NCBI RefSeq assembly: GCF_009674675.1
Contig: NZ_WKJC01000001.1
Span: forward strand, 186,001-250,000
Direction: 5' to 3'
Source of the DNA: Kangiella sp. HZ709
GTDB lineage: Bacteria; Pseudomonadota; Gammaproteobacteria; Enterobacterales; Kangiellaceae
DNA length: 64,000 bases
Positions 61,022 to 63,312 of this stretch are shown one piece after another. The first letter of the stretch is position 1, and every line of letters starts with the position of its first letter. The notes under the pieces were generated by a model that saw only the letters and a program-made list of their open reading frames with translations, did not search any database and was not told the origin of the DNA. A program made the translations under genes and the position numbers.

Positions 61022-61657
61022 TTATTGTGCTTGAATACTTTTGATGCCTTTAACAACATCTTGAGCAGCTTCCCTAGTCAGGCCGTTTACACCTGCAGTG
61101 ATATTGTACTTCATGCCACCAGCTTGAAATTCTGACACAATTACTGAGTCCCATTTAGATAATGGGAACACTTGGTAACACCTAGTTCGAGTTTTACACG
61201 TGTATTGAACATACTCGCCAGTTTTATGTTGATCAGTAATAGGGTTGTAGACTTTCTTACGATCTAAAGCCGATGACCAATAGAGTAATGTTTTTGAGTC
61301 GATTTCTTTACGATTTTTGCTGCTAGAGAATTTGCTTCTTGCAGATTGGAAGCCTGTAATGACCATATGGACATCATTTTGTTTGACCGTATAACGAACA
61401 TAGCCTTTAGGCATAAAACCTGATTTTAGAGACCAGTTGCTTGGGAGAGTCATATAGTTGTTACTACCGACATTAATACTTTTATAAGTTTTAACAGGCT
61501 TAGGTGGCGGTGCTGGTTTTGCTTTTTCAACGGGAGCTACAGGAGTGGTCTTACAAGCGGCAAGCACCAGTAAAGAAGAGGAAAGTAGCAAACCAAGCAT
61601 TGATACTTTTTTAGAACTTTTACCGAAATTTTGCATAAAGGATTTCTCTGTTGTCAT
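61022..61657 (-). CDS. Predicted lipoprotein of unknown function
   Basis: This 211-aa protein has a lipobox (LLVLAAC) preceded by a long basic N region (MTTEKSFMQNFGKSSKKVS). A Pro/Lys/Ala spacer (PAPPPKPVKTYKS) and a compact beta-rich domain with a Cys pair (YTCKTRTRCYQV) follow. ATG at residue 8 (FMQNFGK) may be the true start. I recognise no family. It lies alone between gltX and the S51-like gene. Confidence 0.68.
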   Translation of the reverse strand: MTTEKSFMQNFGKSSKKVSMLGLLLSSSLLVLAACKTTPVAPVEKAKPAPPPKPVKTYKSINVGSNNYMTLPSNWSLKSGFMPKGYVRYTVKQNDVHMVITGFQSARSKFSSSKNRKEIDSKTLLYWSSALDRKKVYNPITDQHKTGEYVQYTCKTRTRCYQVFPLSKWDSVIVSEFQAGGMKYNITAGVNGLTREAAQDVVKGIKSIQAQ

Positions 61658-61740: not shown

Positions 61741-62562
61741 TTAAGCCCAGTGTTCATCATAACTATGATTTTCGCAAGTGAAACGAGCCCCTTGCGCTAA
61801 TATATGCATTTGTAGTCCAAAAAGAGAGATTGGGTCGCCGCTTCCTGCTGAACCCATCGACGAATATTGTAGATTACTTGGGTCTATTAATGTTGCGGCA
61901 CCTGTCCCAAAAACCACTAATTCATCCTTTGGACTGATGAAAAGTGCGGTGCCATCGTCAATTCCTATACCCAAAGTAAAGGGGTTGTATGATAAAGCGG
62001 TTAATAATCGACCTAAGCGTCCTTGTTGCTCAAAGTGGTAATCCACCATAAAACGGTTAGTTAACCCAATTCCTGGGGCCATAGTCACGCCATTTTGAGT
62101 AGGGGTTGTACCATCTTGCCCGCCAGCAATCATATGCTCACTTAAAATGGTGGCTCCGCCAAAAGTTCCTACAACATGTACCCCATCAGCGTTTAACTTT
62201 CTAATTTGTTTGGCAATAAGAGTACCTCCAATCAAAGTAGAGATTTGCAATGGTCTCTCTCCAGCGATAATTAAAATATCGGCGGCTTGCATTTTATCCA
62301 AGTTATCAGAGTTTTGTGCATCTTGACGATTTTGAATATTGATAACTGAGCATTCCACAAAGCCATTATCTGTAAGAACGGGAGCTATTTGATGTTCTAA
62401 CTCTTGTTCAGAAATATTTAGAATCGAAGCTTTAGCTTGGGCGCTAAGGCATAAACCTCTGAGTTGCTCGCAAACCTCAGGGCTTATCCAGTTTTCACAG
62501 CCCCCAATTGGGACAATATAACCACGTTCAAATTCTCCACTACCTTTTGAGGGCATTATCAA
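61741..62562 (-). CDS. Cyanophycinase/S51-family protein lacking the catalytic serine
   Basis: This 273-aa protein matches cyanophycinase block by block: an N-terminal GYIVPIGG, AGERPLQISTLIGGTLIA, a nucleophile-loop region, VDYHFEQQGRLGRLL with the active His (H176), and GIGIDDGTALFI. The nucleophile motif, normally GTSAGA, reads GTFGGA (132-137), so the serine is Phe134. The active-site acid (usually Glu in IDE) is Asp in IDDG. Unless another residue substitutes, it cannot be a peptidase and may be a binding protein. It is 3 bases downstream of the TMEM175-like gene. No cyanophycin synthetase is in the window. Confidence 0.8.
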   Translation of the reverse strand: MIMPSKGSGEFERGYIVPIGGCENWISPEVCEQLRGLCLSAQAKASILNISEQELEHQIAPVLTDNGFVECSVINIQNRQDAQNSDNLDKMQAADILIIAGERPLQISTLIGGTLIAKQIRKLNADGVHVVGTFGGATILSEHMIAGGQDGTTPTQNGVTMAPGIGLTNRFMVDYHFEQQGRLGRLLTALSYNPFTLGIGIDDGTALFISPKDELVVFGTGAATLIDPSNLQYSSMGSAGSGDPISLFGLQMHILAQGARFTCENHSYDEHWA

Positions 62563-62565
62563 TTC

Positions 62566-63312
62566 CTATAAATGTGTTTTGTAATTAGGGTTCAAAGCGA
62601 TTTTGAGCTTTTCTCTTTTATTATTATATAAGCCCATGCTAACGCCAAGAGTACCATATAACATACCGCTAAAAGGACTTATTTCGTTCGGTAAAACTAG
62701 AGTGAGAAGTAATGTTAATGCGCTAGTAAAACTCATTATAACCCAAGAGGTTTTATGGGTTTGAGTTTCGAATAACTCAAATTCATTGAGCATTAAGCTG
62801 ATTCTTTTACTTAAAGCGTGTTGGTATAACCAAAGCATAATCAAGCACATGCTTAAAAAAGCTATATGGAATACAGTAAAGAAGATTTTAATATCTTCAG
62901 GTGTGAATGGCATAGGAGAGGGGAAGTAGCCATTAGATGCCCAATGTAAAAAACCGGCAAAACTAATTTTTAGCGGTACCACAAAAGTCATCACCGAAAA
63001 TACTAATAAGCAACTTATCAGTATAGTTTTAATATCTTCTAGGCCATATCGCTGACTCCATACTCGGTGGGCATACCAAAAAAATACCAGTTGACTAAAG
63101 CTAATGGCAAAAGCTGGTATGTCTTTTAAAAGTAGGGTGAACTCTGCAAAAGTATTAGGGAGACCGTCATTAGAAAAAACTAGCAGGGTAATAGCGAACG
63201 CAAATGCAGCGTCTGTAAAAACTTCTACCCTAGACATATTTTCGCCACGGATCCTAAAGCCATCCCGAACAGGAAAGAGATTTAAACTTTCCTCGTAACT
63301 ATATGATTTCAT
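62566..63312 (-). CDS. TMEM175 (DUF1211) family potassium channel-like protein
   Basis: This 248-aa protein has six predicted helices. The N-terminal signature RVEVFTDAAFAFAITLLVFS corresponds to the TMEM175 pore-lining RxxxFSDGVFAIAITLLV motif. In prokaryotes these proteins form tetrameric K+-permeable channels. It has a longer N terminus and C terminus than the usual 200-aa bacterial member. It is cotranscribed with the S51-like gene (3-base gap). Confidence 0.83.
   Translation of the reverse strand: MKSYSYEESLNLFPVRDGFRIRGENMSRVEVFTDAAFAFAITLLVFSNDGLPNTFAEFTLLLKDIPAFAISFSQLVFFWYAHRVWSQRYGLEDIKTILISCLLVFSVMTFVVPLKISFAGFLHWASNGYFPSPMPFTPEDIKIFFTVFHIAFLSMCLIMLWLYQHALSKRISLMLNEFELFETQTHKTSWVIMSFTSALTLLLTLVLPNEISPFSGMLYGTLGVSMGLYNNKREKLKIALNPNYKTHL

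Follow-up and report, generated by a model that had tools for sequence, protein, structure and literature searches.

The 64,000-nucleotide stretch of Kangiella sp. HZ709 DNA that we analyzed (the window) encodes a cyanophycinase paralogue, psCphB, that lacks the catalytic nucleophile of its family and is probably a pseudo-cyanophycinase, that is, a former enzyme that has been kept for a non-catalytic role. Cyanophycinase degrades cyanophycin, a storage polymer, to beta-Asp-Arg. Judged from its sequence, psCphB descends from the active CphB family, has no access to the acyl-serine mechanism, and is under selection in cells that do not synthesize cyanophycin. It is highly improbable on these grounds that psCphB is an S51 serine hydrolase. 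A specific binding or regulatory role is plausible, and we propose it more tentatively.

The open reading frame of psCphB occupies positions 61741-62562 of the minus strand and is uninterrupted, as a first-pass annotation of this DNA had stated. The start codon is probably ATG 62556 rather than TTG 62562, since all of the Kangiella orthologues open with the signature MPSxGSG, which begins at ATG 62556 in the window, and an AGGA stands ahead of this ATG. The protein matches the TIGR02069 cyanophycinase model at 172.9 bits, which is above the curated cut-off of 126.6, and it also matches Pfam Peptidase_S51 (PF03575) and the cyanophycinase structures 7uqv, 7uqw, and 3en0 (E 1e-31 to 5e-30). TIGR02069 was the sole model reported in the profile search, and the PepE model (NF003642) was not matched. 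An AlphaFold model of psCphB built from five input sequences has a mean pLDDT of 39 and is unusable for pocket geometry. A search of viral contigs found no relatives. The features of the gene and its neighbors are collected in the table.

Table. Positions in the window of psCphB, its altered active-site blocks, and the adjoining genes. Residue names with CphB numbers refer to the canonical enzyme.
Feature	Positions	Strand	Remarks
Nucleophile-less cyanophycinase paralogue psCphB	61741..62556	-	271 aa from ATG 62556
Residues 49-52, NISE	62407..62418	-	Replaces PTAS, invariant in 34/34 canonical relatives; Kangiella consensus NISE-like
Residues 101-104, GERP	62251..62262	-	Replaces GGNQ; Kangiella consensus G[EQ][RK]P; CphB Gln101 -> Pro (window 104)
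Nucleophile elbow GTFGG, residues 132-136	62155..62169	-	Phe134 (62161-62163) replaces catalytic Ser132
DYHFEQQGRLGR, residues 174-185	62008..62043	-	Asp172, His174, Arg180, and Arg183 kept; Gln173 -> Tyr, Arg178 -> Gln
GIGIDD block	61954..61971	-	Position of triad acid Glu201; Asp in window, Glu in 7/18 orthologues
C-terminal tail DEHWA	61744..61758	-	Nearly invariant in Kangiella; absent from canonical relatives
TMEM175/PF06736 membrane protein	62566..63312	-	Directly upstream; ends 9 bases before psCphB ATG
Lipoprotein, no known Pfam family, LAAC lipobox	61022..61657	-	Directly downstream of psCphB

Residue-by-residue alignment against the solved structures places Phe134 of psCphB on the serine of GTSAG, which is Ser132 of Synechocystis CphB. 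In the columns in which the window has GTFGG, the 7uqw chain has GTAAG. The replacement of GTSAG by GTFGG that the first-pass annotation had pointed out is thus borne out, and it extends well beyond the window, with Phe or Tyr at this position in 19 of 19 Kangiella orthologues. Sequencing error or chance as the source of Phe134 is ruled out by the occurrence of Phe or Tyr in 19 genomes. Also ruled out is another Ser, Cys, or Thr of the elbow as the nucleophile: position 133 varies among T, L, and S, and positions 135-136 are G[A/G]. In the Kangiella consensus, GTSAG has become G[TLS][FY]G[GA] and DQHF has become DYHF.

The pairwise dN/dS of psCphB among Kangiella orthologues ranges from 0.006 to 0.10 with a median of 0.039, compared with 0.027 for gltX and 0.035 for GlcD. 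The constraint on psCphB is like that on neighboring housekeeping genes, and this resemblance excludes decay. Together with the genus-wide loss of the nucleophile, it supports the earlier proposal of a selected pseudoenzyme rather than a decaying one. When site 134 was masked for tree building, the resulting topology required at least five exchanges between Phe and Tyr, and no other residue occupies the site; the proteins of loci L010 and L011 differ from each other solely in having Phe or Tyr there. This pattern points to a requirement for an aromatic residue at position 134. Since Phe suffices, the hydroxyl group of tyrosine would not be essential. Cyanophycin synthetase (cphA1, TIGR02068) over the cut-off was found in no Kangiella genome, and this, along with the loss of the nucleophile and of pocket residues, is what one would expect if psCphB were a slowly decaying relic of a lost cyanophycin metabolism. 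However, the low dN/dS, a frame that is open in all orthologues, the conserved synteny, and the restriction of position 134 to aromatic residues largely refute a relic, and we give that explanation almost no credence.

The first-pass annotation had described all of the other family blocks as well preserved. This holds for His174 of CphB (His176 in the window) and for the GID[D/E] block, but PTAS, GGNQ, DQHF, and Arg178 are altered, and the description fails as a whole because three further active-site blocks have been rebuilt. Among the 77 positions at which 34 canonical GTSAG relatives are near-invariant (92% or more), 25 are changed in the Kangiella consensus, and many of the 25 fall within active-site blocks. 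PMC3235067, citing Law et al. 2009, lists Gln101, Asp172, Gln173, Arg178, Arg180, and Arg183 as critical for activity or for the pocket, beside the catalytic Ser132. From this set of six, psCphB keeps Asp172, Arg180, and Arg183 and has lost Gln101, Gln173, and Arg178, in addition to the nucleophile. The Gln173-to-Tyr and Arg178-to-Gln/Pro changes are present in the 18 full-length Kangiella copies (the remaining orthologue, L028, is clipped by a contig end). Gln101 is replaced by Pro in 19 of 19 Kangiella orthologues, in the copy of a sister genus, and in all 25 sequences read from a second lineage described below. His176 is found in 18 of 18 full-length Kangiella copies, with Asp or Glu at position 203 (CphB Glu201); Asp is able to serve in an S51 triad, as in MccG (PMC9239234).

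The residues that remain in psCphB could be those of a residual hydrolase that acts on aspartyl peptides by way of a His176-activated water or an alternative nucleophile, given that His176, the acid at 203, Arg180, and Arg183 are all still in place. The genome also contains an Asparaginase_2 (IaaA-type) gene, about 526 kb from psCphB and with no iaaA/iadA scavenging cluster, whose product could process beta-Asp-Arg. We regard residual hydrolysis as very improbable nonetheless: Ser132 has been replaced by Phe or Tyr and the three pocket residues are gone, no IadA over the cut-off was found in the window's genome, and an intact PepE with GWSAGS is already encoded elsewhere in that genome.

After the conserved GG of strand 1, residue 22 (62497-62499) is Cys in 17 of 18 Kangiella copies and Ser in one; canonical enzymes have Ala or Gly there. 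It is possible that Cys22 is a new reactive residue. The DEHWA tail might function as a peptide for recognition or self-insertion.

We built a tree of 56 proteins comprising the nucleophile-less copies of Kangiella, of a sister-genus MAG (G020), and of a second family (f206), plus canonical CphBs. The Kangiella and G020 nucleophile-less copies form a clade with support of 99/99 that is nested among canonical GTSAG cyanophycinases. To the question raised in the first-pass annotation of whether Phe defines a clade, the answer is that Phe or Tyr (19 of 19) marks a genus-wide clade with this same support. G020 carries both kinds of protein: contig C244 encodes a canonical copy with GTSAG and DQHF, and contig C106 encodes one with GTVGG and DHNF. 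The C106 copy is flanked by gltX and by TMEM175/M1 peptidase, which is the same locus as in the window; it has lost His174 (DHNF) and is without Glu102 and Cys22.

The second group of nucleophile-less copies was found by a class-wide search plus a search of the order around genome G763. With an N-terminal piece as the probe, such copies were found in 33 of 148 genomes, in five genera of one gammaproteobacterial family (f206). The triad is wholly lost in all 25 of the sequences read (loci L084, L101-L104, and L128-L147), with Ser132 replaced by Gly or Ala, His174 by Gly (DQGG), and Glu201 by Ala, Pro, Gly, or Val. All 25 keep Arg180 and Arg183 alongside the Pro in place of Gln101. No shared neighbor gene was recognized among the high-GC f206 loci, around which ORFs were called by codon-position GC. 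In the 56-protein tree, the f206 copies group with canonical enzymes of family f217 (support 100/99). A single origin of all nucleophile-less copies is disfavored (AU p 0.026), which is moderate evidence because of long branches and because the tree had been seen before the group was named. We consider it likely, although not certain, that the Kangiella and f206 losses of the nucleophile were independent.

These additional copies bear on whether psCphB might still be an enzyme, one that uses its remodeled site (for example Glu102, Tyr175, His176, Asp/Glu203, and Cys22) for a new chemistry other than acyl-serine hydrolysis. Strong purifying selection would be consistent with such an enzyme, as would the conservation in Kangiella of His176, the acid at 203, Tyr175, and Glu/Gln102 and the newly gained Cys22 (Ser in one species). 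However, the sister-genus copy has neither Glu102 nor Cys22, and His174 is lost both there and in f206, which would confine any conserved catalytic set to Kangiella. We judge a new chemistry to be unlikely.

Comparison placed the window in Kangiella, with named relatives from the genus at 81-98%. Orthologues of psCphB are present in 19 of 20 Kangiella genomes and missing only from a MAG that is 55% complete. Our searches returned one full-length CphB-like copy per Kangiella genome and no other. Cyanophycin synthetase passes the TIGR02068 cut-off in 6 of 99 genomes, and all six have a GTSAG/DQHF cphB. Among five f206 genomes checked, three have cphA1 and a second CphB, in a cphA-cphB cluster elsewhere, and cphA1 was not detected in the other two (G763 and G866). 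An intact CphB is thus encoded alongside the dead paralogue in G020 and in three f206 genomes, which would fit an origin of psCphB as a dead regulatory subunit pairing with active CphB, with Kangiella retaining a secondary use. Pairing of this kind has some precedent in that CphB is a homodimer whose activity is modulated by the partner protein ArgD in Synechocystis (PMC12661447). Yet in all Kangiella, and likewise in G763 and G866, the dead copy persists in the absence of any detected cphA1, and Kangiella has no partner subunit now, as only the one full-length CphB-like copy per genome was returned. An origin as a regulatory subunit seems quite unlikely to us. ArgD itself is an unlikely partner of psCphB and we do not propose it, because the motif with which cyanobacterial CphB binds ArgD is reported to be lacking in other bacteria (PMC12661447).

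The order of genes at the Kangiella locus is M1 peptidase, an optional TMEM175 gene, psCphB, the lipoprotein gene, and then a convergent gltX, and this synteny is kept. A TMEM175 gene adjoins psCphB in five genomes, namely that of the window, G008, G011, G017, and the sister-genus G020. Within Kangiella it is found only in G000, G008, G011, and G017, always beside psCphB, and its absence from 16 of 20 genomes rules it out as an obligate partner; it is instead an ancestral neighbor of psCphB. A second TMEM175 copy is present elsewhere in G000 and G011. The downstream lipoprotein, which has a conserved CYQVFPLS core, occupies the same position in nearly all Kangiella loci and was not detected at the psCphB locus of G017 or of the sister genus. 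The lack of a conserved partner gene, with TMEM175 patchy and the lipoprotein missing from the sister-genus locus, counts against a pseudo-cyanophycinase with a retained non-catalytic role.

We nevertheless favor the pseudo-cyanophycinase explanation, under which CphB would have been duplicated and one copy, before Kangiella and its sister genus split, would have lost the catalytic Ser and a large part of the pocket that binds cyanophycin. This dead copy would then have been retained for a non-catalytic task unlinked from cyanophycin. The S51 fold would be retained, probably along with the dimeric state, and the aromatic side chain at 134 would occupy the place of the acyl-enzyme. The half-pocket formed by Asp172, His174, Arg180, and Arg183 may bind a partner protein or else a small ligand of anionic or aspartyl type, and psCphB would then be a sensor, scaffold, or regulator in the cytoplasm rather than a peptidase. 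The retention of His174 and of an acid at Glu201 is more than a pure binding role would strictly need, and it counts against such a role. Our best guess is that what matters is the set shared by the two lineages (Asp172, Arg180, Arg183, and Pro at 101), although these residues may be structural. A broader and more speculative idea, which we consider possible, is that cyanophycinases have repeatedly given rise, through loss of the nucleophile, to a widespread non-catalytic sensor or carrier of aspartyl/arginyl-type ligands, or to a partner regulator. This would have happened at least two times within Gammaproteobacteria, each time with a Gln101-to-Pro change and retention of an Asp/Arg/Arg half-pocket, and the resulting protein would operate in cells without cyanophycin synthesis.

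The NCBIfam equivalog TIGR02069 names nucleophile-less proteins "cyanophycinase" and is in this respect a source of misannotation. It is matched above its cut-off by the proteins at 61741-62556 of the window, at 2572-3405 of L066, and at 7370-8182 of L122, and because of this naming, cyanophycin degradation is inferred from genomes whose protein has no access to the known mechanism. Similarity-based surveys of cyanophycin metabolism can count such proteins as well. Among open-licence PMC papers, we found none that mentions Kangiella with cyanophycin or cyanophycinase, none that joins pseudoenzymes with cyanophycin, and no description of such a nucleophile-less protein, although one may exist elsewhere. 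The two lineages, with intact paralogues for comparison, offer a natural experiment on a serine peptidase that has no nucleophile and is still strongly conserved.

Among known systems, psCphB is most readily compared with CphB itself (MEROPS S51; TIGR02069; PDB 3EN0, 7UQV, 7UQW). It scores above the cut-off of the CphB model and keeps His174, Asp172, Arg180, Arg183, and GID[D/E]; it differs from CphB in Ser132 to Phe/Tyr, Gln101 to Pro, Gln173 to Tyr, Arg178 to Gln/Pro, an altered PTAS loop, and the lack of cphA1. The dipeptidase PepE (S51, NF003642) shares Pfam PF03575 with psCphB, which is without a match to the PepE model. S51 clade II resembles psCphB in that proteins of the family have been reported that lack peptidase activity and have no established function, but it is a different clade from CphB, which belongs to clade IV (PMC9239234); psCphB is CphB-derived by sequence. 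Finally, the f206 lineage is like psCphB in the loss of Ser132, the Gln101-to-Pro change, the retention of Arg180 and Arg183, and the ability to occur without cphA1, whereas it differs in having lost His174 and Glu201 as well and in grouping with other canonical CphBs.
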